A DNA stretch of 64,000 nt. Origin: Cystobacter ferrugineus (GTDB lineage Bacteria > Myxococcota > Myxococcia > Myxococcales > Myxococcaceae). Shown piece after piece: positions 44,531 through 60,595 of this stretch. The stretch covers positions 372,001 to 436,000 of the forward strand of contig NZ_MPIN01000009.1 in assembly GCF_001887355.1 (NCBI RefSeq), in the 5' to 3' direction. Every line of letters starts with the position of its first letter. Positions within the stretch are counted from its first letter, which is position 1. Both the position numbers and the translations under genes were made by a program. The notes beneath the pieces were generated by a model. That model searched no databases and was not told the DNA's origin. It saw only the letters and a program-made list of their open reading frames with translations.

Positions 44531-44790
44531 CAGTGACCTCTGCCCAACGGCCCGTTCGTGTCTTCGTCAACGGTTGGCCGTTCGCGATGGAAGGTGGGTA
44601 CCTCCCTGCACGCCTTCGGCGACACGGAGCCCCGGGCCCTCGCGGCTGAATCGTCCGGGGATTCGCCCACCCCCGGCCGGGTGGAGCCGCATGCGGGCAC
44701 ACGCGGAGTGAGGTGTGCCGAGGCCACGCCCTGGTGCGGTATGGTTCGCCTTCACGCCCGCCTCCTCGGGGAAGGGCAGAGCCCCCGCCA

Positions 44791-47700
44791 ATGATCGCCA
44801 GCGATTCCCCCACCTCCCTCGCTCCGCTCGTCATCCCGGGCTACACGCTCCTGGGCGCCTTGCAGGAAACGGGAACCAACATCCTCTACCGCGCGGTGCG
44901 CGAGGCCGATGGACTCCCGGTGATCGTCAAGACGCCGCGCGCCCGGCACCCCGGCCCGCGCGAGCGCGCCCGCTACCAGCGCGAGTACGACATCCTGCAG
45001 CGCCTGCGAGGCACCCCCGGAGTGCTCGCCGCCTACGCGCACCGTGAACTCCAGGAGCGCCCCGTCCTGCTGCTGGAGGACGTGGGGGGCACGGCCCTGT
45101 CGGCACGGACTTCCACTCCCCTCGAACCTTCCCGGTTCCTCGAGCTGGCCCTCTCCCTGGCAACCACCCTGGCGGAGGTCCATCGGCGCGGCGTCATCCA
45201 CAAGGACATCAAACCCGCCAACATCCTCGTGTCGCCCTCGGGCGGGGCCTGGCTCATCGACTTCGGCATCGCCACCCCGCGGCGGGTGGAGCACGTGGAG
45301 GCGATCCTCCAGCACCAGCTCGTCGAAGGCACTCCGGCCTACATGTCCCCGGAGCAGTCGGGGCGGATGAACCGCGCGGTGGACTACCGCACGGACTTCT
45401 ACTCGCTGGGAGTCACCTTCTACGAAGTGCTCACGGGCAAGCTGCCCTTCCGGGGACAGGACGTGCTGGAGTGGTTCCACGCCCATCTGGCCCAATCACC
45501 CCCCCCTCCGCACCAACTGGTGCCCTCCCTTCCCCCCGCGCTCTCGGCGGTGGTGATGAAGCTGCTGGCCAAGGTGGCCGAGGAGCGCTACCAGAGCGCC
45601 GAGGGCCTGCGGGCGGATCTGGAGCGCTGCCAGGAGGCGTTGCGCGACGGAGCCCTGGAGCCCTTCGCCCTGGGCAGCCGGGATCTCCCCGCCCGCTTCC
45701 TGCTCCCCCAGCGGCTGTACGGTCGCGAGGCGGATGTGGACGCCCTGCTGACGGCCTTCGAGCGGGTGGCCTGCACGCGCCGGACCGAGTGGGTGCTCGT
45801 CCATGGCTACTCCGGCATCGGAAAGACGTCCGTCGTGCGCGAGCTGCACCGCCCCGTGCTGCGGCGGCGCGGCTTCTTCCTCAGCGGCAAGTTCGATCAG
45901 CTCCAGCGCGACGTGCCCTATGCCACCCTGGCGCAGGCCATCCGGGAGCTGGTGCGGCAGCTCCTGGCCGGAAGTGACCAGGAGGTCGCGGACTGGCGTC
46001 GGCGGCTGCTGGAGGCGTGGGAGGGCAACGGACGGGCACTGGTGGACCTGGTGCCCCAGCTCGAGCAGCTCGCCGGCGCGCAGCCCGCGCTCGCCGACAT
46101 GCCCCCGGCGGAGACGCGCAACCGCTTCAACCGCGTCTTCCAGCGCTTCCTCGGCGTCTTCGCCAGCGCGGAGCGCCCCCTGGTGCTCTTCCTGGACGAC
46201 CTGCAGTGGGCGGACGTCGCCAGCCTCGAGCTGCTGCGCTACCTCGCCACGCACCCGGATACGCCGCCCGTGCTGTTGCTCGGCGCCTACCGGGACAACG
46301 AGGTGAGCCCTTCCCACCCGCTGGCGAGGACCCTGGCCGAGGCGCGCACGGAGGGGGCGGCCCTGGCGGACATCCACCTGGGGCCCCTGTCGCTGGAGCA
46401 GACGCGGCAACTGGTGGCGGATGCCTTCCCCGGAGCCGGCGACGAGCTGGTGCTACCCCTGTCGTCCCTCGTCCAGGACAAGACGTGCGGCAACCCCTTC
46501 TTCCTCCTCCAGTTGTTGCAGACGCTCCATCAGGATGGGTTGGTGGAGCGTGTCCCCGAGGGCGGCTGGCGCTGTGACGCCGAGGGCGTCCGGGCCAAGG
46601 GGTACTCGGACAACGTCATCGACTTCATGGCGGGCCGCCTGCTGCTGTTGCCAGAGCCGACCCAGCGGTTGCTCCGCCTGGCCGCGTGCGTGGGCAACGT
46701 CTTCCCCGCGCGGATGCTCGCCCTGCTCTCCCACCAGGAAGAGTCCCAGGTGGAGCAGGGCCTGGAGCCCGCGCTCCAGGAAGAGCTGCTGGCGCGGGTG
46801 GAGGCCTCACGCTACCGCTTCTCGCACGATCGGATCCAACAGGCCGTCCATGCCCTCATCCCCGAAGAGGAGCGCAAGGCCGTCCACCTGCGCATCGGAC
46901 GTCAGTTGATGGAGAACCTCTCGCCGGAGGAGCGGTGCGAGCGCCTCTTCGATGTGGTGGGTCACCTCAACGCCGGCATGGAGTTGATGAAGGACGACGC
47001 GGAGCGCCGCCGTCTGGCGTGCCTGAACGCCGAGGCGGGTTGGAAGGCCAAGGCCGCCTGCGCCCACCACTCGGCCGTGGCCCACTTCGCCACCGCCTTC
47101 GCCCTGCTGCCCGGCGATCCCTGGGAAACCGAGCGGGAGCTGGCCTTCACGCTGCGCCTGGGTCAGGCCACCAGCGAGGTGATGAACGGCCAGGTCGCCG
47201 AGGCGCGCCGGTTGATGGAAGAACTGCTGCCGCGGGCCCGCACGCGCGCGGAGATGGAGGCCGCCTATCGCCTCAAGAGCGATCTCTTCCTGCAAGCCAG
47301 TGATCCCCAAGGCGCCATCGACTGCCTGCTGGAGTGTCTGGAGAAGTTCGGCATGCCCCTGCCGCCGAACCCCTCCTGGGAGGAGGTGGTGGCCGCCTAC
47401 GAGGAGGTGTGGTCCCTGCTGGGGGAGCGTCCCATCCAGAGCCTCCTCGAGCTTCCCCCCATGAGGGACCCGGACCTGAAGGCCGTCATGAGCGTCCTGT
47501 CGGCCCTGTTCGCCCCCGCGTTCTTCTGCCGCAGGAGCCTGCATGCCTTCCACATCTGCCGGATGGTGACGCTCTGCCTCCAGCACGGGAACGCGGAGGC
47601 CTCCGCGCATGCGTATGCATGGTTCGGCTTCCTGAGCAGCAACGTCTTCAAACGGTATCGGCAGGGTCTGGCGTTCAGCGACTTCGCCTGCCGGCTCGCC

Positions 47701-50127
47701 GATCTCCAGGGCAACGCCGCCTACCAGGGCGAGGCGCTCCACGCCCGGGCGATGAATGGGGTGTGGGTGAGTCCATTCACCGCCACGCGGGAGTTCATCC
47801 TGCGGAGCATCCAGCAGTCCGTCCTGGCCGGTGAGTTCCGCAATGCCTGCCTCTGCTACAACCACAGCACCCTGATTCCCCTGGTCGTGGGACGAGAGCT
47901 GGCGGAGGTGCAACGCGAGGCCCTCGCGGGCTACGACTTCGCGTCCAAGGTGGGCTTCTGGGATGTCGCCCAGACGATGGTGGTCTGGCAACGCTTCGTG
48001 GCGCAGCTCCAAGGCCGCTCCGACTCCCTCGCCACCCTCAACGGAGATGGGTTCGAGGAGAGGGCCTTCGAGGCGCGGCTCCTCGAGGGCGCGGTCGTTC
48101 CACTGCGCTCCAGCTATCTCATCGTGAAGGCGATGGCGCGCTTCATCTGTGGCGCACAGGAGGAAGCACACCAGGCACTCGAGAGCGCCTCGGAGCTGAT
48201 CTGGTCCAACACCGGACAGCTCTTCTCCTACCTCTACCAGCTCTTCCGGGCGCTGACCCTGGCGGCGCGCTGCCGGGACGCCCCGCCATCGCGGCGGCGC
48301 GAATACCTGGAGCGAATCGAGCAACACCACCGGCAACTGGCCGAGTGGGCCGGGAACTGCCCGGAGAACTTCCGCGCGGCCGAGAGACTGGTGTACGCCG
48401 AGTGGGCGCGCCTGAACGAGCAGCCCGACCAGGCCAGCCTCGCGTACGAGGAGGCCATTCGCTCCGCCCGCGAGCAGGGCTCGCTGCTGAACGTGGCCCT
48501 GGCGAGTGAACTGACCGCGCGCTTCTGGAAGGAGCGAGGGCTGTTCACCACCGCCGTCCTCTTCGCGAGGGAGGCCCGGGAGAACTGGTGGCTCTGGGGG
48601 GCCGACGGCAAGGCACGGCAGATGGAGGAGAAGTGGCCCGCCCTGGGCTCGCCCTCCGCGAAAGTACCGGGCGCCAGCACGAGCTGCGACACCCAGACCA
48701 GTCACCTGGATGCGCTCTCCATCGTCAAGGCCCAGCAGGCCATCTCCAGCGAAATCGTCCTGGAGCGGCTGGTGAATACCCTCATGCGGGTGGCGCTGGA
48801 GAACGCCGGCGCCCAGCGCGGCGCGCTCCTGGTGCCGCGCCAGGACACGCTGGAGGTGGCGGCCCTCGTGGACACCTTCTCGACCCAGGCCTTGCTGGAG
48901 GGAGAGCACGCCCGGCCCCTGCCCTGGACGCTGCTGACGTACGTGCGGCGCTCGGGCGAGCACGTCCTCATCAACGACACCGCCCAGCCCCACCCCTTCT
49001 CCGCCGATGCGTACCTCTCCAGCGGTCCGGCGCGCAGCGTGCTGTGTCTCCCCCTCGGACGCCCCGAGGAGCTCAGCGGGCTGTTGTACCTGGAGAACGA
49101 CCTGGCGACCGAGGCCTTCTCCCCGGGCCGCATCGTGCTGCTCCGGCACCTCGCCTCCCAGGCCGCCATCTCCATGGAGAACGCGAGCCTGTACGCGGAG
49201 GTGCGGCGGGCCGAGGCGGCCCTGCGCCAGTCCAATGACGAGCTGGAGCAGCGCGTGGAGGCACGCACTCGCGAGCTGAAGCAGGCCCAGTCACACCTGG
49301 TGGAGACGGCGCGCGTGGCGGGCATGGCGGAGATCGCCTCCAACATCCTCCACGAGGCCGGCAATGCCCTCACCAGCGTGGTGGTGGACACGGATCTGAT
49401 CCGAGACTCGGTGGATGCCTCGCGCGTGGGCCGGGTGAAGCAGGTCGCGGATCTGCTCGTGGCGAGCCAGGATCACCTGGTGGACTTCCTCACCGGGGAT
49501 CCACGCGGCAGCCTCCTGCCGGGCTACCTGTCCACGCTCGCGGGCGAGTTGCTGCGCGAGCAGGAGTCGTTGAAGAGCAGCCTCGAGTCCCTGCACGGGC
49601 ACGTGAGCCGGGTGGGAACCATCATCCAGACCCAGCGCACCTACGCGACGTCCACGGTGCTCACGGACGAGTGTGACCTGACCGGGCTGGTGGAGGAAGC
49701 CCTGCACATGCTGGCCGCGCGGCAATTCCCCATGTCGGTGACGAAGGAACTCACCGCGCTGCCCAAGGCGCGGGTGGACAGGCATCGCGTGTTGCAGATC
49801 CTCATGAACCTGCTCAACAACGCCCGCGCGGCGCTGGAGTCCGTGCCCGAGGAAGCGCGGCACCTGACGGTGCGGCTGACGGCGGAGGGCGGCTGGGCCC
49901 ACCTCCAGGTGGTGGACAATGGCGAGGGCCTGACCGAGGAAGTCCGCGAGCGGCTCTTCACGCAAGGCTTCAGCACCCGCAAGGACACCTACGGCACCGG
50001 CCTGCACTCCAGCGCCCTGGCGGCCCGGCTGCTGGGCGGACGGCTCACACTGGAGAGCGACGGACCGGGCCGGGGCGTCACCGCCACCCTCGAGCTGCCC
50101 CTTGGGGGCACCCGCCGCGAAGCCTGA
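44791..50127 (+). CDS. Trifunctional Ser/Thr kinase / AAA ATPase / sensor histidine kinase
   Basis: The 1778-residue protein has four parts. Residues 10-285 are a Ser/Thr protein kinase (VIHKDIKPANILV, Asp139; LIDFGIAT; GTPAYMSPEQSGR). Residues 310-600 are an AAA/NTPase module with GYSGIGKTS (339-347) and VLFLDDLQWAD. Residues 650-1280 are helical repeats. Residues about 1300-1480 are a GAF domain, then a coiled coil (QRVEARTRELKQAQSHL) leading to a histidine-kinase region with NILHEAGNALTS (His1521) and an HATPase (LMNLLNNARAAL, VVDNGEGL, TYGTGLHSSALAA). This architecture is typical of large myxobacterial and cyanobacterial signalling proteins. Activity of each part appears possible. I chose ATG 44791, matching the usual kinase domain start. 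The 41.1-kb fragment shows that a second, related gene once existed nearby. Confidence 0.92.
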   Translation: MIASDSPTSLAPLVIPGYTLLGALQETGTNILYRAVREADGLPVIVKTPRARHPGPRERARYQREYDILQRLRGTPGVLAAYAHRELQERPVLLLEDVGGTALSARTSTPLEPSRFLELALSLATTLAEVHRRGVIHKDIKPANILVSPSGGAWLIDFGIATPRRVEHVEAILQHQLVEGTPAYMSPEQSGRMNRAVDYRTDFYSLGVTFYEVLTGKLPFRGQDVLEWFHAHLAQSPPPPHQLVPSLPPALSAVVMKLLAKVAEERYQSAEGLRADLERCQEALRDGALEPFALGSRDLPARFLLPQRLYGREADVDALLTAFERVACTRRTEWVLVHGYSGIGKTSVVRELHRPVLRRRGFFLSGKFDQLQRDVPYATLAQAIRELVRQLLAGSDQEVADWRRRLLEAWEGNGRALVDLVPQLEQLAGAQPALADMPPAETRNRFNRVFQRFLGVFASAERPLVLFLDDLQWADVASLELLRYLATHPDTPPVLLLGAYRDNEVSPSHPLARTLAEARTEGAALADIHLGPLSLEQTRQLVADAFPGAGDELVLPLSSLVQDKTCGNPFFLLQLLQTLHQDGLVERVPEGGWRCDAEGVRAKGYSDNVIDFMAGRLLLLPEPTQRLLRLAACVGNVFPARMLALLSHQEESQVEQGLEPALQEELLARVEASRYRFSHDRIQQAVHALIPEEERKAVHLRIGRQLMENLSPEERCERLFDVVGHLNAGMELMKDDAERRRLACLNAEAGWKAKAACAHHSAVAHFATAFALLPGDPWETERELAFTLRLGQATSEVMNGQVAEARRLMEELLPRARTRAEMEAAYRLKSDLFLQASDPQGAIDCLLECLEKFGMPLPPNPSWEEVVAAYEEVWSLLGERPIQSLLELPPMRDPDLKAVMSVLSALFAPAFFCRRSLHAFHICRMVTLCLQHGNAEASAHAYAWFGFLSSNVFKRYRQGLAFSDFACRLADLQGNAAYQGEALHARAMNGVWVSPFTATREFILRSIQQSVLAGEFRNACLCYNHSTLIPLVVGRELAEVQREALAGYDFASKVGFWDVAQTMVVWQRFVAQLQGRSDSLATLNGDGFEERAFEARLLEGAVVPLRSSYLIVKAMARFICGAQEEAHQALESASELIWSNTGQLFSYLYQLFRALTLAARCRDAPPSRRREYLERIEQHHRQLAEWAGNCPENFRAAERLVYAEWARLNEQPDQASLAYEEAIRSAREQGSLLNVALASELTARFWKERGLFTTAVLFAREARENWWLWGADGKARQMEEKWPALGSPSAKVPGASTSCDTQTSHLDALSIVKAQQAISSEIVLERLVNTLMRVALENAGAQRGALLVPRQDTLEVAALVDTFSTQALLEGEHARPLPWTLLTYVRRSGEHVLINDTAQPHPFSADAYLSSGPARSVLCLPLGRPEELSGLLYLENDLATEAFSPGRIVLLRHLASQAAISMENASLYAEVRRAEAALRQSNDELEQRVEARTRELKQAQSHLVETARVAGMAEIASNILHEAGNALTSVVVDTDLIRDSVDASRVGRVKQVADLLVASQDHLVDFLTGDPRGSLLPGYLSTLAGELLREQESLKSSLESLHGHVSRVGTIIQTQRTYATSTVLTDECDLTGLVEEALHMLAARQFPMSVTKELTALPKARVDRHRVLQILMNLLNNARAALESVPEEARHLTVRLTAEGGWAHLQVVDNGEGLTEEVRERLFTQGFSTRKDTYGTGLHSSALAARLLGGRLTLESDGPGRGVTATLELPLGGTRREA

Positions 50128-52135: not shown

Positions 52136-53419
52136 ATGATTGTCGTCGTTCTGGCACTCGTCATGGCGCAGACACCAACGCCCTGTCTGGAGCGCTATCG
52201 CGCCCTGCAGCCTGGTTGTCCCGGATTGGCGAGCTGCCCTTCGACCGAGCCGGAGGCCTGTGCTCGCCTGAGCAGCACCTTCGCGGTGGATGAATCGCGC
52301 CTCGGACTTCGCATCCAGGAGGACGAGGCCGTCGAGGTCGTTCATCGCGAGGCGATCCAACCGATCCTCGGTGCGGGACTCGCCGGCACGCCCGGCCAGA
52401 TCGATGCCCCGGCCCAGGTCCAGACGGTAGGGCTCATAGGGGCCTCGCTGGGCATCGTCGCCACCCCTACCAACCGCGTCGGGCTCTTGTCCCTCTCGGT
52501 CAACCCGCTCGCCATCTCGAGCAAGGGTCGAGGCTCCTCCGTGCGGCTGTCGCGCCTCTTCGATGTCAGCGTCGCACTGTCCGCGTCCCTGATGGAGCCG
52601 TTCCTCCCCGAGCTCATCGGCTTGAGGGCCAACCTCGACTTCGTCGGTGCCGCGGTGGCCCACCGCGAGTTCAATACCCTGTCGACCACGCTGCTCCAGG
52701 CCACGCGACGGGTGTTCACCACGGAGGGCTGGTTTCGCGAGGACTTGAGGCGCGCGCTCGACACGCTCACTCCCGAGCAGCGCGCACGGTGTCTCGATGC
52801 CCTCTTCGCGGTTCCCGTCACGCTCGACGGGCTCGCCTCCTGCTCCCCGGAGCTTCCCGCGCGCCTCCTGGCCGCGGCGTCCGCGAGCGCCCCGTACCAG
52901 AAGGCCCTCGACGACTTCCAGGATGCACTCGACTCCTCTCATGGAGGGCTCAACGTGCAGCTAGATGTTCCCGCGACCCCGTCCAGCACCGTGCCCTTTC
53001 GAGCGGCGCTCCTGGGCGCCGGAACGTTCGGCCTCGTCGGGGACGCACGCGCCCCGTGGCGGCTCGACGCCATGGCCTCGCTCGGACCGGACTGCCTGCT
53101 TCTACCTGGCGACAGTGCCCTGGGCGTGAGCCTGGCCGCCGCGCTGGCCGTGAAGGCACGGCTCGCACGAGGCCTGCCAAGACTGCATTCGAGCATCGGG
53201 TTGAGGGGTCATGTCGGCCAGGCCGCGCAGGTGCGTGTCCTCAGCCTCGCGAGCCGGCCTGGCAATTACCTACAAGCCCAGTGGGGTGCCAGCCTTCCTC
53301 TCTGGAGGAGCGGGTTGACCATGTCCGGTGGCCTGAACTGGACCCTCGTGGGGAGGGAGTCCGGGCAAATGGCGTTCGCCCTGAACCTCCTCTACTCGCT
53401 GCCGGGTGGGGAGCGATGA
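52136..53419 (+). CDS. Exported protein of unknown function, upstream of the caspase-like gene
   Basis: The 427-residue protein starts MIVVVLALVMAQTP, a short signal peptide. Its N-terminal part has four cysteines (CLERY, GCPG, SCPST, CARL). Residues 300-427 have alternating hydrophobic residues and end with SGGLNWTLVGRESGQMAFAL then LLYSLPGGER, as in outer-membrane beta-barrels or lectin-like sandwiches. I do not recognise the family. It lies 27 bp before the caspase-like gene on the same strand, so the two may be co-expressed. Any shared role is inferred. Confidence 0.65.
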   Translation: MIVVVLALVMAQTPTPCLERYRALQPGCPGLASCPSTEPEACARLSSTFAVDESRLGLRIQEDEAVEVVHREAIQPILGAGLAGTPGQIDAPAQVQTVGLIGASLGIVATPTNRVGLLSLSVNPLAISSKGRGSSVRLSRLFDVSVALSASLMEPFLPELIGLRANLDFVGAAVAHREFNTLSTTLLQATRRVFTTEGWFREDLRRALDTLTPEQRARCLDALFAVPVTLDGLASCSPELPARLLAAASASAPYQKALDDFQDALDSSHGGLNVQLDVPATPSSTVPFRAALLGAGTFGLVGDARAPWRLDAMASLGPDCLLLPGDSALGVSLAAALAVKARLARGLPRLHSSIGLRGHVGQAAQVRVLSLASRPGNYLQAQWGASLPLWRSGLTMSGGLNWTLVGRESGQMAFALNLLYSLPGGER

Positions 53420-53446: not shown

Positions 53447-54931
53447 ATGGGCACGCAGCAACGAACACCCCCGTCGGAACCACTCCGGGAAACACTCGAG
53501 CTGCTGCTCGCCAGGGCCGATGATCATCAGCCCAGCCTGCCCTCCGGGCTCGATCCGGAGTCCGTCCAGGGCGCCCCCCGGCCCGAGCGGTTGCCGCGCC
53601 GGGCGGAAGTTCCCCTGCTCGACAGACCCGACGCGGACCCCAATGCCTTACCCGAGCAGCGCTGGGGCGTGATCGCGCCCGAAGGGAGTGAGGGGGACGC
53701 ACTGCTGCGAGCCATTGCCCCGCTGGTGGAGCACCGGGCGCGGCAACAGGACGCGGAGGTGAAGATCTACCGGGTGCGCCCGGACATGGACGCGGCCCAG
53801 GCGGTCACCTGGAGGGAACGGGTGTATCGGGACGAGCGCGTCCCCGCCGAGGAGCGGCCCAGGTACCTGCTGGTGCTCGGAAGTCCGGAGCAGGTCTCCT
53901 TCGAGCTCCAGCACGTGTTGGCCCAGGGCGCCTTCGTGGGACGATTGCACTTCGCGACGCCGGAAGGCACTCCGGACCTCGCAGGCCTCGGGGCCTATGT
54001 GGACAAGGTGCTGGCCCATGAGCACTCCACCGAGCAGGCCGAGGCCGCCGACGTCCTGCTCTACACGGCCTCGGATGAGTCGAAGGCCACCGTCCAGGGC
54101 CACCAGCTCCTGATGGAGCCCTGCCGGAAGATGGTGGAGACGAGATGGCTCCCCAAGCAGTTGGCGAGGCGGCTCCAGGTCCTCCGCGGTGAGGAGTCGG
54201 AGGCGCTGCCACGCGTGGCTGGCGCGGCGCGCTCTGGGGTGTTGCTCTCGGTGTCACATGGGCTGGGGGCACCGAAGGGAGGATGGGCCTCCGCCGAGAA
54301 ACAGCGGGCGAGGCAGGGAGCCCTCTGTCTGACGCCCGAGTTGGAGCTCACCGCGGACACGGTCCGGCAGCTCCCGTTCCTCCCCGGGGGCATGTGGTTC
54401 TGCGTGGCGTGCTTCGGGGCGGCGACTCCGCGCAAGAGCGCCTTCCATGCCTGGCTGTCGATGTTGGCGAAGCAGAAGCTCTTTCCTGGCCGCCCGGAAG
54501 CCGTGCTCGGCAACCTGCCCCAGCCCGGGGAGCCCTCCTTCCTCGCCGCGCTTCCCCAGGCCCTGTTGGCCAATCCGCTCGGTCCCCTGGCCTTCGTGGG
54601 GCACAGTGATCTGGCCTGGAACTTCGGCTTCGCCCACCTGGACAACCTCTCCGAGAGCCGCGCGTCTCGCATCCTCTCGGCGCTCGAGGTCCTGGCGAAG
54701 GGCAGCCGGGTGGGGGTCGCGCTCGATGCGCTGATGCGCTCCTTCCGGGACGTGAATGACAGCCTGATGTCCGCCTACCAGGAGCGGCAGGAGGCGCTCG
54801 AGGAGGAGCGGCCCGACCCCACGGATCCCAAACGGCTCGGCTACCTCTGGATGCTCCGCAATGACTTGAGAGGCTATCTGCTGCTGGGAGATCCGGCGGT
54901 CCGGCTCCAGTTCCGGCGAGCCACGAGATAG
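53447..54931 (+). CDS. Caspase/CHAT-clan cysteine protease candidate
   Basis: The 494-residue protein has a Pro/Arg-rich N-terminal part (1-70) and a two-part protease-like region. The strand-loop GVLLSVSHGLGAPKGG ends with His271-Gly, and the next strand FLPGGMWFCVACFGAATP carries Cys322. His-Gly followed by a Cys after a hydrophobic strand, some 50 residues apart, is the caspase/gingipain/CHAT (clan CD) dyad. The 'FVGHSDLAWNFGFAH' segment further on is the third strand. No signal peptide or membrane helix is present, so it is probably cytosolic. It reads toward the STAND-WD40 and CHAT operon, ending 20 bp from it, suggesting a shared functional locus. Substrate is unknown. Confidence 0.65.
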   Translation: MGTQQRTPPSEPLRETLELLLARADDHQPSLPSGLDPESVQGAPRPERLPRRAEVPLLDRPDADPNALPEQRWGVIAPEGSEGDALLRAIAPLVEHRARQQDAEVKIYRVRPDMDAAQAVTWRERVYRDERVPAEERPRYLLVLGSPEQVSFELQHVLAQGAFVGRLHFATPEGTPDLAGLGAYVDKVLAHEHSTEQAEAADVLLYTASDESKATVQGHQLLMEPCRKMVETRWLPKQLARRLQVLRGEESEALPRVAGAARSGVLLSVSHGLGAPKGGWASAEKQRARQGALCLTPELELTADTVRQLPFLPGGMWFCVACFGAATPRKSAFHAWLSMLAKQKLFPGRPEAVLGNLPQPGEPSFLAALPQALLANPLGPLAFVGHSDLAWNFGFAHLDNLSESRASRILSALEVLAKGSRVGVALDALMRSFRDVNDSLMSAYQERQEALEEERPDPTDPKRLGYLWMLRNDLRGYLLLGDPAVRLQFRRATR

Positions 54932-54951
54932 GCAGAAGGCTTTCGACGCGT

Positions 54952-57900
54952 TCAGGAGGAAACACGGCCCTGGGAGCGCTCGCAGTCGGCGTAACGCCTC
55001 TGGGCTCGCGCTTCGCGCTCATTGAGATAGGTCTCGCGCAGGTCCGGCGTCAGGCAGTCCTTGTTGTCCTGACGCAGATGTCGCTGAAGTTCAGGGATCG
55101 ACAGGAGGGTCCAGATCTTCGCTGTCCTGTCACTGCCGGCGGTCACGAGGTGCCGGCCATCCGGGCTGAAGGCAACGGATTGGACCGGCCCGGTGTGTCC
55201 TTGCAGGAGGAGGGGTTCGCCCTTTCCGTCCGCCCGCCACACCCGAGCCGTCCCATCATCTCCCGAGGTGGCGATGCTCTGGCCGTCCGGGCTGAAGGCG
55301 GCGAACCGGATCGCCCCCTGGTGTCCTCGAAGCACGAGAGGCTCGCCCGTTCCATCCGCTCGCCACACGCGCGCCGTCCCGTCATCTCCCGAGGTGACGA
55401 CTCGCTGGCCCTCCGGACTGAAGACAGCGTGCGTCACCACGCCCGCATGCCCTCGCAGAACGAGGGGCTCGCCCGTCCCATCCGCCCGCCACACGCGCGC
55501 CGTCCCATCCAACGAGGCGGTGACGACACGCTGGCCGTCCGGGCTGAAGGCGGCGGAGATGACACCTCCCTTATGTACCGCGAGCACCACGGGCTCGCCC
55601 ATCCCATCCGCCCACCACACGCGCGCAGTCCCATCCATCGAGGCAGTGACGACACGCTGGCCGTCCGGGCTGAAGGCGGCGGAGATGACCTGTCCCGCGT
55701 GTCCCCGCAGGACAAGGGGATCACCCGTTCCATCCGCCCGCCACACGCGCGCCGTCCCATCCAACGAGGCGGTGACGATGCGCTGGCCGTCTGGGCTGAA
55801 GGCGGCGGATTGCACCTGCGCCGCGTGCCCTCGCAGCACCAGGGGCTCGCCCGTGCCATCCGCCCGCCATACGCGCGCCGTGCCATCCCACGAGGCGGTA
55901 ACGATGCGCTGGCCGTCCGGGCTGAAGACGGCGGACACGACCGCCTCCGCGTGCCGCCGGAGCACCCTGGGCTCCGTCGGGCCTCCGGCCCGCCACACGC
56001 ACGCCGTGCCGTCCCACGAAGCGGTGACGATACGCTGCCCATCCGGGCTGAAGACGGCGGACATGACCAACCCCTTGTGTCCCTTCAACTCCACGGGCTG
56101 TCCCGTTCCATTGGCTTGCCACACGCGCGCCGTCCCATCCCAGGAAGCGGTGGCGATGGACCGGCCATCCGGGCTGAAGACGGCGGACTGCACTTGCGCC
56201 GTGTGCCCCTTGAGCACCACGGGTTCGCCCGTTCCATCCGCCCGCCACACGCGCGCCGTGCCATCCCACGAGGCGGTGACGACGCGCTGCCCCTCCGGGC
56301 TGAAGGCGGCGGACATGACTGCTCTCAGGTGCCCCCTGAGCACCACGGGCTCGCCCGTTCCATCCGTCCGCCACACGCGCGCCGTCCTATCCTCACTGGC
56401 GGTGACGACGTGTCGCCCATCTGGGCTGAAAGCGGCGAACATGACGGCTCCCCTGTGCCCCACGAGCACCACGGGCGCACCCGTTCCATCCGCCCGCCAC
56501 ACACGCGCCGTCTCGTCCGCGCTGGCGGTGACGACGCGCTGCCCATCCGGGCTGAAGGTGGCGGAGTGCACCTGCGCCACATGCTTCAGCACCACGGGCT
56601 CACCCGATCCATCCGCCCGCCATACGCGCGCCGTCCCGTCGAAGGACGCGGTGACCACGAACCGCCCATCCGGGCTGAAGGCGGCGGACGCGATCGGTCC
56701 GGTGTGTCCCTTCAGCTCCACGGGCGGGCCCGTCCCGTCCACCCGCCACACCAGAGCCAGGCCGTCCCACGAGGCGGTGACGACGAACTGACCATCCGGA
56801 GAGAAGGCCGCGGAGGAGAGAAACCCCTTTTGTCCCTTCAACTCCACGGGCGGGTCCGTGCCATCCGTCCGCCACACCTGGGCTGTTCCATTCACACTGG
56901 CGGTGACGACGTGCTGGCCATCCGGGCTGAAGCGGGCCGCGTAGAGCGCTCCCGGGGCGCGGAACGTCACCTCTGGAGCGCTCCTCGCCAGGGCTCCGTG
57001 CGCGAGGGTCGCCCACCCCCGGATCCGCTCTGGCCGACGGATTTCGAGCAGCAGCTTCATCGCCATCGCGGACTGGCCGCGCTCGAGCAACTCCCGCGAC
57101 CCCGACATCAAGGACTGGTTGCGAGCCCGCTCCGCCTGCGCCCGCGCCCACAGGAACAGGCCCCCCATCACCATGGCCACCGCCAGTGCCACCACGGAGA
57201 TGGCCCGCAGCCGCCGCCAGCGGGCCCGCTCCCGTTCGAGTTGCCGCCGTGACGCCTCCTCCCTCAGCCGCTCCCGCCGGAGCTCGAAGACCTTCCTCGC
57301 CAGCCAGTCGTGGCCGAGCTCGAAGTAGCGGCTGCCGTGGTGCTCTCCAGCCAGCAGCACCGCGGTGCCCTCCAGGGTGGTCAGCACCCGCTCGGCCTGC
57401 CCCGGGGGGAGCGCGGCCTGCGCCTGCCGTTCCGTCAGCAACGCCCGGCTGCCGTCGCTGGCCACCAGGTGCTCCTCCAGCAGCCGCCGGGCATCCCCCG
57501 CCAGGGGCCCCAGCCCTTCCAACGTCGCATCCAGGTAGCGGTGCAGGATGGGCTCGGCCTCCACCGGCCCCAGCACCACGTTCCCGGCGGCGCGCTCCTC
57601 CCAGAGGGCGCGGCAGACGATCTGCGCGAAGGCGGCCTGCACCTCCGCCTCCTCCGTGGTGTCCTGTCCCGGCATCCGGACCTGGAGCATCAACTCCCGC
57701 AGCTCGTGCGGGGGCCAGTGCTGCGCGGGGGTGCCGGAGGCCGCCAGTCTACGAGCCACCTCCGCCATTTCGCGCACCATCAGCGGTCCGAGCCGGCAGC
57801 CGTGCTCCAGCAACTCCGCCGCACCGCGCAACCGCTCCCGGAATCGTCCCAGGTAGTCCTCGCGCAGCAGCAGCACGAGCTGCAGTCCCCGGACGGGGCC

Positions 57901-58374
57901 GCGGGCCAGGTGCACCAGTCCCTCGATCAATGCATCCGTCTGCTCCGGGTCGCACCCGGGAAGGAGGAGTTGCTCGAGCTGATCCAGGTAGAGCAACACC
58001 GGCCGGTCCGAGCGCCGCTCCGCCAGCCGCACCGCTTCCTCGAGCGCCTCGTCCGGGCGCATCCCCGCGGGCGGCGCGCCGAGCCGCAGATCCGCGAACA
58101 TCGCATGGACGAGCCACTCGAGAGGCGCGTGGCGGTCCAGCCACCCTTCGACGCGGACCACGCGGAACTCATGCTTCTCCTCCAGCAGGGGAATCACTCC
58201 GGCCCGCATCAACGAGGACTTGCCCGCGCCCGAGGGTCCGAAGAGCAGGAAGCAGGGCCAGGCGAGGATGCCTTGCACCACCCTGCGCGTGGACTCCTCC
58301 CGGCCGAAGAAGCGGTTTCGTTCGCTCGCTCGGTAGGGCTGGGGTCCCAGGAAGGGATTGGCGGAGCCGCTCAT
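54952..58374 (-). CDS. STAND-type NTPase with transmembrane helix and 15 WD40 repeats
   Basis: The 1140-residue protein begins with a [20 protein letters not shown] motif typical of this nSTAND subgroup, then Walker [10 protein letters not shown] (46-54), a Walker B-like [14 protein letters not shown] and a winged-helix region (residues 1-395). A hydrophobic helix ([19 protein letters not shown]) around residue 405 would anchor it in the inner membrane. Residues 470-1090 are 15 WD40 units, most of them [22 protein letters not shown]. The last 50 residues are charged. The protein probably senses a ligand through its propeller, then oligomerises and activates a partner, as Apaf-1- and NLR-like proteins do. 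The CHAT protease gene directly upstream, with overlapping codons (ATGA, 58371-58374), is the likely partner. Confidence 0.88.
55105..56945 (-). repeat. Tandem array of about 126-bp WD40-coding repeats
   Basis: The WD40 part of the STAND gene is a tandem repeat array of about 15 units of 42 codons. Many neighbouring units differ at only a few codons, e.g. the units encoding '[21 protein letters not shown]' variants at 55,740-56,060. Such nucleotide-level identity goes beyond what the WD40 fold needs and points to recent unit duplication or gene conversion. Confidence 0.8.
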
Positions 58375-60383
58375 CCCCTCCCCTCGGCCGCCAGCGCCTC
58401 GAGCCAGTCCTCCAGCGCCTCATCCGTCGATTCACACGCCCTCACCCCGGTCTTTCCAGGCAGTCCCCTGCCCTCCTCCCACAACTCCTGCTCGCGACCG
58501 CTGGGATCGAGGACGGCCATGCTGCCGCGCATCAGCGTGCGCTTGCCGAAGAGCTGGTAGAGCAGCATCCGGTGGCTCCAGTCCAACATGGACATCCCGA
58601 CGAGCAGGAGCGGATGCAGGCTCAGGGCGCTCTGGATGGGCTCGACGAGCTCGAAGGGCAGCAGGCTCGACAGGCCGCGGACGCCCAGCAGGTAATCGTC
58701 CTCGGTGAGCAGCGGCCGGCTGAAGAGGTGGGCCGGCAGGTAGCCGGAGCAGAGCCGGAGCACCACCACGTCCCGCTCGGGCTCCAATCCGCTCGGGACC
58801 TGGCGCAACCGCTCCCAGCGAACGGCGCCCGCCTCGCGCCGCATCATCACGGCGTGTCCGTCCGCGTTCGACGAAGGCTGGATGACGTAGAGCGTGAGCC
58901 GCGGATGCTGCTCGGCGATGGCCTGTTCCAGCACGGGCAGGCGCAGCAGGGTGATGTGCACCCCGGGCCCGAGCCGGCGTGCCAACAGACGCACCAGGGG
59001 CGGCATGAAGTGCGCCTGGCCGAACACCTCCTGGAACTCGTAGTCCAGCTCCTCCTGCCCGATGCGCAGCGCGAAGTGCTGCGCCAGGGTGCTCAGTGGC
59101 AGCTCGTATGGCACGGGGAGCTCCTTCTGGGTGAGCTCGCCCTGGAGCCGCTCGCGCAGGCCTCGGAAGTCGGGCGCCTCTTCCTCCCAGCGATTTCCCA
59201 ACAGCAACGTGAAGGGTTGCTCCAGCAGCCGCCCCAGGGCGGCGGGCGGTGGGGACACCTCCGTCCGGGTGGTAGCCGCCAGGGGCGGGGGCGAGACCTT
59301 GCGCGCCTTGAAATCGAACAGCACCGGATCGCGGCCACGCAGGTACAGCACGGGGGAGAACGCCTCGGCACTCCCCTCCAGCTCCGCCAGGACGCTGCGC
59401 CGGGCCTCGTTGAGGCTGAGCGCCACGTCGCCCTCTTCCCGGGCCGCACGCGTGAGCGCGCGGTAGAACGCACGCGAGCAGCGAAGGGCCACGTCCATCC
59501 GCACCGGCCAGAGGTAGGCGACCACCGCATCCGCCGCGGTGCGCGCCAGCAGCTCCGCCGCGCTCGCCAGGGCGCCAGGGCTCGCTCCCTCACAGGCCTC
59601 CAGGACGATGAGCCGCAAGGGACCCTGGCCCCATGCCCCATGGAGCTGCTGCGCCAGCAACTCCACCGAGACCCAGCTCTCCTCGTCCTCCTCGTCCGCC
59701 AGCCGCAGGACGGGTCTTCCCTCGTGCAGGCCCCCGTGTCCGATGAAGTGGAGGATGTGAGGCTCGGGCTGGCGCCTCAGGCGCTCGAAGAGCGCGGCCT
59801 TGCGGGACCTGGGTCCCGTGAGGGGCTCGAGCCACTCGATCTCGCCCGAGGCGAGACTCTCGTGAAGCGTCCCCTGCAACCGGGAGAGGGAGTGGGGGTG
59901 CAGCGGCGCGATGGCGAGCAGCCGCACCGCGCCCCGCACCTCGCGCGGTTGCCAGGGCTCGGGCGAGCGCACGCCTCGCACCGGCAACAGGCTCGCCGAG
60001 TTCCCCAGGAACTCGAAGTCCCTTCCGGGCTCACAGAGGGCCTCCCAGGGGAAGCCTTGGAGGTCCGCATCCTGGAGCATGAACCGCAGCAGGACGGGCC
60101 CTCCATCCGAGGCCTCGCGCAGCCGTTCGAGCACCGCCTGGAGATCCCCCTGGATGAGGGCCCGGTGGAGCGCCTGGACCTGGCGTGCGAGCTCGGGCTC
60201 GAGCGGCATGCCTCCCTCGGCCGCCGTCTTCAGGCGCCGGGCGAGCGCATGCAGCGCGTCCGCATCGAAGCCGGGGCCGAGCAGGTGCACCCCGGGCTGC
60301 TCCTGACGGGAGCCCAGACCCCGGGCCCGCAGCTCGGCACCACTCCGCTCGACGTCGATTTCCAGCCAGTTCCTGGCAGAAAT
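58371..60383 (-). CDS. CHAT-domain protease, first gene of the STAND-WD40 operon, possible ATT start
   Basis: From the first standard start codon (GTG 60290) the protein is 639 residues, with a CHAT (caspase-like) domain: HILHFIGHGGLHEGRPVL (His185) and LRLIVLEACEGASPG (Cys233). The remaining 350 residues have a mixed composition and may bind the STAND partner. However, protein-like sequence continues in frame upstream (ARNWLEIDVERSGAELRARG), with no ATG, GTG or TTG before an upstream stop. An ATT at 60383 is preceded by GGGAGGA, an excellent ribosome-binding site, 4 bp away, so I annotate the start there (670 residues). Rare ATT starts are known, for example in infC. The gene overlaps the STAND gene by four bases. 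Confidence 0.8.
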   Translation of the reverse strand: MSARNWLEIDVERSGAELRARGLGSRQEQPGVHLLGPGFDADALHALARRLKTAAEGGMPLEPELARQVQALHRALIQGDLQAVLERLREASDGGPVLLRFMLQDADLQGFPWEALCEPGRDFEFLGNSASLLPVRGVRSPEPWQPREVRGAVRLLAIAPLHPHSLSRLQGTLHESLASGEIEWLEPLTGPRSRKAALFERLRRQPEPHILHFIGHGGLHEGRPVLRLADEEDEESWVSVELLAQQLHGAWGQGPLRLIVLEACEGASPGALASAAELLARTAADAVVAYLWPVRMDVALRCSRAFYRALTRAAREEGDVALSLNEARRSVLAELEGSAEAFSPVLYLRGRDPVLFDFKARKVSPPPLAATTRTEVSPPPAALGRLLEQPFTLLLGNRWEEEAPDFRGLRERLQGELTQKELPVPYELPLSTLAQHFALRIGQEELDYEFQEVFGQAHFMPPLVRLLARRLGPGVHITLLRLPVLEQAIAEQHPRLTLYVIQPSSNADGHAVMMRREAGAVRWERLRQVPSGLEPERDVVVLRLCSGYLPAHLFSRPLLTEDDYLLGVRGLSSLLPFELVEPIQSALSLHPLLLVGMSMLDWSHRMLLYQLFGKRTLMRGSMAVLDPSGREQELWEEGRGLPGKTGVRACESTDEALEDWLEALAAEGRG

Positions 60384-60595
60384 GGAATCCTCCCGCGTGC
60401 GCTCCCTCAGGGAGAGACCACACGGGGAACTTGTGCAGCCCTCGGAGCCGGTGGAACGGTGTCCGAGGACTCGCCCGACCGAAGAGCAGCCGGTGGATCG
60501 AGGCGTGGCCCGTGTTCACCGGGGCACGCCTCCCCGCGGCGGGTGCTGGGAGGAGTCCCGCACCTGCCTCGGCCAGGCGTTGGCGGTAGCGCCGA

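Follow-up and report, generated by a model that had tools for sequence, protein, structure and literature searches.

A conserved three-gene module of Cystobacter ferrugineus, joining a gingipain-fold protease to a CHAT protease and a hypervariable WD40 receptor, as a candidate conflict system

A stretch of 64,000 nucleotides from Cystobacter ferrugineus (contig NZ_MPIN01000009.1, positions 372,001 to 436,000 of the forward strand; this whole stretch is called the window here) carries three neighboring genes, A, B and C, which, judged by their conservation across genomes, are one module. Their products are a gingipain-fold protease, a STAND ATPase with a WD40 propeller, and a CHAT protease with a second, SIR2-fold half. 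We consider it rather probable that B is a conflict receptor that switches on the CHAT protease of C and that A acts as a second, probably executioner, protease; the module is probably an alarm that responds to an invader or a stranger by shutting the cell down or killing it. In window coordinates, the genes are:

53447 to 54931, plus strand: gene A, 494 residues, gingipain-fold (C25-like) clan CD cysteine protease
54952 to 58374, minus strand: gene B, 1140 residues, nSTAND1 ATPase, membrane segment and WD40 propeller
58371 to 60383, minus strand: gene C, CHAT protease whose C-terminal half has a SIR2 fold, start probably the ATT at 60383
58371 to 58374, minus strand: ATGA overlap between the start of B and the stop of C, translational coupling

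C was sought in the 195 genomes of the phylum set at a cut-off of 1e-60 and A likewise at 1e-30; the best 6 or 8 first-look candidates per genome were scored, so that the counts of genomes with C (at least 21 of 195) and with A (at least 41 of 195) are lower bounds. Two tables read by hand place A within 10 kb of C at 25 of 32 C loci, with no A nearby at six and the remaining locus on a short contig that ends inside B. In a tree built from 111 A sequences after removal of duplicates and of short or weak matches, the A of the window belongs to a 39-tip clade with support of 1.0, and 34 of these tips have C within 9 kb; of the other five, two lie at contig ends where a WD40 fragment is preserved, one has B only and two have neither B nor C, one of these two (L125) with only 4.7 kb of sequence on one side. 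C also lies near 4 of the 72 tips outside the clade, all in stretches that carry a clade A as well. The gene order itself varies, being mostly C-B with a convergent A, and elsewhere C-B-A, A-C-B or A divergent from C; convergent A and B genes overlap at their 3' ends by up to 58 bases. Distances are correlated between A and C (r 0.916, 28 loci), A and B (0.93, 26 loci) and B and C (0.948, 26 loci), with 0 of 2000 permutations in each case, and the shared ancestry of the hosts adds to these correlations. Some genomes hold several divergent copies of the module, and where copies from the same genome were compared (in G043, G082 and G120), their A proteins are just 55-61% alike, which suggests that the A, B and C sets travel as units. 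Since A is co-conserved with C and the catalytic dyads described below are intact, the module proposed in a preliminary description of this DNA stands, as does its observation that the CHAT and STAND genes share start and stop codons; B and C would presumably be co-transcribed.

The catalytic residues of A are encoded as follows:

54257 to 54259, plus strand: codon of His271 of A (catalytic dyad), invariant in alignment A1 (29 rows)
54410 to 54412, plus strand: codon of Cys322 of A (catalytic dyad), invariant in alignment A1 (29 rows)

The product of A is apparently a cytosolic protease of the gingipain fold, as its AlphaFold2 model indicates. A segment of about 60 residues at the N-terminus precedes a core at about residues 64-490, and no signal peptide was seen by eye in the predicted protein. 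The model (predicted local distance difference test, pLDDT, 93.4; predicted template modeling score, pTM, 0.93) matches RgpB (4ief_B) with Z 26.4 and 3.1 Å over 299 residues and Kgp (6i9a) with Z 24.8 and 3.5 Å over 324 residues, the RgpB and Kgp matches ranging over Z 24.7-26.4; lesser matches are CHAT proteins and separase (Z up to about 15.7), metacaspases (up to 10.6) and caspases (about 9). The preliminary description had proposed two clan CD proteases with the dyads His271/Cys322 in A and His185/Cys233 in C; both dyads are upheld, and the structural match replaces its label “caspase-like” for A with a gingipain (C25) fold. The Pfam C25 profile gives A 18.3 bits (E 0.0015), under the curated cut-off of 23, and we therefore call A C25-like and do not file it as a gingipain; the same profile matches 68 of 72 A-family proteins at E of 0.1 or less (best 9.4e-12). 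Sequence searches with A or the A1 profile found no PDB chains, and no PADLOC or NCBIfam family was found for A. In the 111-sequence tree, all 39 tips of the module clade keep the dyad, as do 70 of the 72 others, the exceptions being two single-chain fusions. Gingipains are secreted proteases; A shares with RgpB and Kgp the whole catalytic fold and the His-Cys dyad, but no signal peptide is visible in A, and its partner is a CHAT protein.

Gene C has the following features, with residues numbered from the GTG at 60290:

60389 to 60393, minus strand: GGAGG ribosome-binding site of C, 5 bases before the ATT
59382 to 60179, minus strand: CHAT domain of C, residues 38-303 (Pfam 74.7 bits, cut-off 24, E 1.1e-20)
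59736 to 59738, minus strand: codon of His185 of C, invariant in alignment A3 (19 rows)
59592 to 59594, minus strand: codon of Cys233 of C, invariant in A3 (19 rows) and Cys in 25 of 26 rows of another alignment
58374 to 59267, minus strand: SIR2-fold domain of C, residues 342-639, NADase motifs absent (pseudo-SIR2)

The longest frame of C that opens with ATG, GTG or TTG starts at this GTG (58371-60290, 639 residues). We place the likely start 31 codons upstream, at the ATT at 60383, which is also the upper limit of the region given in the preliminary description, because of the spacing of the GGAGG, the presence of the same ATT in both congeners (L063 and L064), the in-frame GTG found there in L103 and L066, and the segment WLEI after the ATT, which is common to these homologues.

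By sequence and predicted fold, C is a CHAT protein joined to a pseudo-SIR2 half without NADase motifs; the preliminary description did not include this second half. The CHAT profile matches 19 of 19 C homologues at E of 0.1 or less. The predicted model of C (pLDDT 75, pTM 0.51) is weaker than that of A; the closest fold to its residues 117-333 is the SAVED-CHAT filament 8tl0 (Z 17.9), and residues 342-639 match the SIR2 folds of DSR2 (Z 12.4) and Avs5 (12.3), with a root mean square deviation of 6.3, and that of KomBC (about 12, deviation about 6). Pfam SIR2_2 gives a weak match to C itself (E 0.24, under the cut-off) and matches 8 of the 19 homologues (best 6.4e-5). Pattern searches of these homologues found GAG.S in 0 of 19 and [TS][TF]N[YF]D in 0 of 19; H[LIV]HG has three matches, which by eye lie within TEDDHIHG, outside the expected site. 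Alignment of the SIR2 half with two proteins of the same genome that belong to SIR2_2 and appear by eye to have intact motifs gave an hhalign probability of 1-5% and left the catalytic sites unaligned, so that the loss of motifs in C is read from the pattern search and by eye. A PDB sequence search with C found no match, and one with the SIR2 half (A4) found short, weak matches to KaiB and Myb (E 0.05 or worse). PADLOC sees similarity to SAVED_CHAT and BovA in the CHAT part; no NCBIfam family was found for C, no SAVED match was found in it with Pfam, and searches for C in phages and in plasmids gave no match.

The features of gene B are:

57211 to 58356, minus strand: nSTAND1 of B, residues 7-388 (108.3 bits, cut-off 27.1, E 8.9e-31)
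58216 to 58239, minus strand: Walker A GPSGAGKS of B, with DQLEQ in the same domain
57148 to 57204, minus strand: predicted single transmembrane segment of B, residues 391-409 (from hydropathy and flank charges)
55045 to 56931, minus strand: WD40 units of B, 15 units of 41-42 residues, hypervariable at offset 13 and also at 35, 37 and others

This bears out the membrane-anchored STAND ATPase with a long WD40 part of the preliminary description, with one hydrophobic segment and 15 WD40 units. The residues G51, K52, S53, D131, Q132, E134 and Q135 are kept in 24 of 24 rows. A hydrophobic segment follows the ATPase in 20 of 20 B proteins, that of the window included (where it covers residues 386-404 if counted from the NPFLGP motif), and in 19 of the 20 its preceding 15-residue flank carries more positive charge than the following one, the two flanks being equal in L075 and close in L079 (+3 versus +2). 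By the positive-inside rule, the WD40 part of B would thus be periplasmic, which hydropathy makes probable. No effector domain lies N-terminal to the STAND domain of B, where nSTAND1 starts at residue 7, and no effector-associated domain is among the Pfam matches listed for A, B and C (for B, 25 of 57). PADLOC reports WD40-type and weak ATPase similarity for B. One B homologue (L068:9084-10379) ends shortly past the transmembrane segment, without WD40, and still lies between A and C.

The WD40 part of B changes faster than the rest. When B of the window is compared with that of L064, 7% of residues are different in the ATPase and 20% in the WD40 part, and the changes concentrate at offset 13, which in the WD40 unit directly precedes the conserved Asp. 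In four comparisons, of which three come from one trio, this offset is changed in 13 of 15, 11 of 15, 10 of 14 and 10 of 13 repeats, a concentration reached by 0, 3, 0 and 2 of 5000 shuffles, respectively. Module B proteins were compared in 17 pairs that are not independent of one another; offset 13 is among the six most variable positions in 15 of these (the exceptions being L108-L109 and L081-L082) and in none of three pairs of single-chain CHAT-nSTAND1-WD40 proteins, which are few and have 7-8 units each. Nonsynonymous divergence (dN) at offset 13 is 0.56-0.98, compared with 0.06-0.09 outside the seven variable offsets.

Many near-identical WD40 units with variable positions on the interaction face are also found in the fungal HET-D and HET-E of Podospora, in which codons under selection lie beside conserved sites on the face through which the propeller interacts (PMC1805685); by analogy, we infer that offset 13 is an equivalent position. 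B has nSTAND1 where the fungal proteins have NACHT. We know of no transmembrane segment in HET-D or HET-E, which have the HET domain as effector where the module has CHAT.

We propose the following order of events. The WD40 propeller of B, probably periplasmic, would bind a changing ligand, upon which the nSTAND1 ATPase would oligomerize; the assembly would then engage C, the product of the overlapping gene, and turn on its CHAT protease, with the pseudo-SIR2 half serving as a docking or ligand-binding module rather than as an NADase. The active CHAT protease would act together with the cytosolic A, in the likeliest case through a cut in the N-terminal segment of A. In turn, A would degrade proteins of the cell, so that the cell, infected or challenged, would stop growing or die. 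The order, CHAT first and then A, is drawn from analogy with the SAVED-CHAT cascade and from the segment of about 60 residues before the core of A. A role in conflict or cell death fits the sequence evidence for a hypervariable sensor and for A relatives in operons of the type of the cyclic oligonucleotide-based antiphage signaling system (CBASS).

If the propeller instead read a partner molecule of other strains, as HET-D and HET-E do, the module would serve kin discrimination and not defense against phage. The highly similar repeats that nevertheless vary at set positions between congeners, the several divergent copies in some genomes and the fungal precedent (PMC1805685) are in keeping with such allorecognition, the CBASS-type relatives of A point to phage, and on balance we regard it as somewhat doubtful as the sole use; the two uses may coexist.

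Beyond the module, members of the A family frequently, though not universally, pair with CHAT proteins, as far as sequence comparison can tell. The 12.05 Mb genome of the window has only nine CHAT matches and three A-family matches, and all three of the latter lie 0.4-4.5 kb from a CHAT match, which is closer than chance would give; one of these A-family genes is about 4 kb from a SAVED-CHAT gene. In the surveyed stretches (L063-L178, chosen for holding A or C, with some loci counted twice), six-frame searches with hidden Markov models found a CHAT match within 6 kb of the A match in 90 of 123 cases, further off in 5 and nowhere in the stretch in 28. The CHAT partners include zf-HC2-TPR-CHAT proteins with an extracytoplasmic function (ECF) sigma factor, CHAT-nSTAND1-WD40 proteins and SAVED-CHAT proteins. 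Full-length SAVED-CHAT genes (at least 46% identity) have an A-family gene about 4 kb away in seven of nine cases, the two without one being those of genomes G095 and G111. In the three SAVED-CHAT and A loci examined (L096, L159 and L175), a SMODS cyclase lies just upstream of SAVED-CHAT, which identifies these as CBASS-type operons. Three plasmids carry A relatives of 25-28% identity, recorded as C25 family cysteine peptidases (Sinorhizobium, Planktothrix and Nostoc), and all three have a gene annotated as CHAT within 7 kb; on the Sinorhizobium plasmid, the C25 gene is convergent with a row of a CHAT gene and an ATPase gene, the ATPase matching AAA families only, and weakly. The plasmid relatives have an N-terminal segment of similar length, although the matches start at residue 64.

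The three CBASS-type operons encode, besides the SMODS cyclase and SAVED-CHAT, an ECF sigma factor, a TPR-CHAT protein (with zf-HC2 in L096), a small gene (152-161 residues in L096 and L175; not called in L159) and the A-family protease, possibly an arrangement for cyclic-nucleotide control of the sigma factor through proteases. Members of the family without CHAT have varied neighbors, for example calcineurin-like phosphoesterases. Tandem pairs of A-family proteases occur in L089, L118 and L119, stretches without a CHAT match; the pair in L089 adjoins a P450 gene, and L118 and L119 carry remnants resembling B or C. Outside Myxococcota, L178 (Caldilineales) has an A relative of 30% identity, a CHAT match in the stretch and, nearby, an open reading frame of 2128 residues with weak WD40 and NTPase similarity.

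A rival reading is a stress-signaling scheme, in which CHAT and A would cut a regulator, such as an anti-sigma factor, and thereby change transcription without killing the cell. A paralogues do sit with the ECF sigma factor and the zf-HC2-TPR-CHAT protein, the transmembrane anti-sigma factor DdvA is among the fold matches, and in type III-E systems Csx29 cuts Csx30, which is reported as thought to free a sigma factor (PMC10028731). Beside the module of the window, however, no sigma or anti-sigma gene was recognized in the two flanking genes and exported neighbor scanned, and a hypervariable sensor would be unusual for a housekeeping stress signal; we judge this scheme unlikely.

A might also be a regulator or decoy of the CHAT protein, as its inhibitor or substrate, with no executioner role. 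The best argument that A may regulate CHAT comes from the two single-chain CHAT-nSTAND1-C25 proteins (L098:5599-9264 and L161:7385-11500), in both of which the C25 His and Cys are lost, the sole such cases among the 111 sequences, while the CHAT His and Cys are kept. The stand-alone A proteins, by contrast, keep the dyad (39 of 39 and 70 of 72), which argues that catalysis by A is selected for, and a purely regulatory A seems to us improbable. That the genes are mere chance neighbors, as the convergent orientation in the window, the unrelated exported gene upstream of A and the absence of A from six of 32 C loci could suggest, is contradicted by co-conservation in changed gene orders, by the distance correlations and by the plasmid loci, and can be given hardly any credence.

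Several observations weigh against a conflict receptor that works through two proteases. No A was found near six of the 32 C loci, and 33 of the 123 A-family matches are without CHAT within 6 kb, some of them beside unrelated enzymes; the loss of the dyad in both fusions means that C25 can act as a partner without being catalytic. The ratio of nonsynonymous to synonymous divergence (omega) at offset 13 is 0.47-1.95 on only 13-15 codons, and the synonymous divergence (dS) in the WD40 part exceeds that in the ATPase by a factor of 1.7-2.3, which makes repeat exchange part of the variability and leaves selection unproven; together with relaxed constraint, such exchange may account for much of the variability. 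With omega so spread over few sites and dS raised as well, positive selection in the WD40 part is not claimed. About 20% of prokaryotic WD40 proteins are highly repetitive (PMC5587647), so the similarity of the repeats is not special in itself. Finally, the two flanking genes scanned are ordinary (a cyclophilin and a nitrilase), with no sign of a defense island.

The module has relatives in plan among known systems. The SAVED-CHAT pathway includes a PCaspase cascade with a second clan CD protease. SAVED-CHAT proteins of CBASS and type III CRISPR (8tl0), for which a cascade of proteolytic activity is mentioned (PMC11229360), have the closest CHAT fold and, like C, a CHAT domain followed by a C-terminal sensor-like module; the module differs in having pseudo-SIR2 for SAVED and a STAND receptor for the cyclase or Cas10. 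In Craspase, too, a sensor switches on a CHAT protease, the TPR-CHAT protein Csx29 of type III-E (PMC10028731), but that sensor is RNA-guided, TPR precedes CHAT and the substrate is Csx30. Avs5 (SIR2-STAND) and DSR2 share the SIR2 fold (Z 12.3-12.4), and Avs5 a STAND ATPase as well; in the module, the SIR2 fold is on a chain separate from the STAND protein and has no motifs. The SIR2 domain of Avs5 and DSR2 is an active NADase. STAND systems linked to proteases, TIR or caspases, and bacterial metacaspase-NACHT-WD40 proteins, are alike in combining a STAND-type ATPase, sensor repeats and a protease (PMC7159879, PMC8195603, PMC10907252, PMC3501461), and differ from the module with its two clan CD proteases and pseudo-SIR2; the metacaspase-NACHT-WD40 proteins are already described in PMC3501461.

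Around the module, the exported neighbor (52136-53419), which the preliminary description had considered as a possible component, is genus-specific by sequence and outside the module, and can be ruled out as a part of it: a six-frame search of 191 loci found it only in the locus of the window and in those of the two congeners. It has no strong Pfam match, and no cyclase was found among six proteins of the window scanned with Pfam. Further off, positions 44713-50127 (plus strand) encode an 1804-residue protein that by eye contains Ser/Thr kinase, ATPase, GAF and histidine kinase parts; the genome has 16 weak nSTAND1 matches, all in open frames about 1760-2200 residues long, and this gene, which contains one of the 16, may belong to a large paralogous set.

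STAND-protease conflict systems, CHAT cascades and NLR-like receptors with WD40 are kinds already known. In the open-access literature, as far as its texts are accessible and mostly without subscription papers, we found no description of the triad or of the C25-CHAT pairing. As far as that literature shows, three elements are new: the CHAT-pseudo-SIR2 protein, the partnership of CHAT with a gingipain-fold protease in different phyla and types of system, and the coupling of such a protease pair to a hypervariable WD40 receptor in bacteria. Tentatively, the module could be an apoptosome-like device with a self/non-self receptor, in which a membrane STAND propeller with a binding face that repeat exchange rewrites from one close relative to another would start a two-step clan CD cascade, CHAT held by pseudo-SIR2 activating a cytosolic gingipain; the same pair in CBASS, ECF-sigma and single-chain receptor settings would then be a general immunity protease cassette.

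In Myxococcota, cytosolic gingipain-fold proteases thus gain CHAT as a frequent partner, of which Cyanobacteriota and Pseudomonadota supply further examples, and they gain a tie to CBASS-type operons. B is a possible bacterial counterpart of the fungal HET-E receptors, with a propeller specificity and a two-protease output that would be testable in culture.

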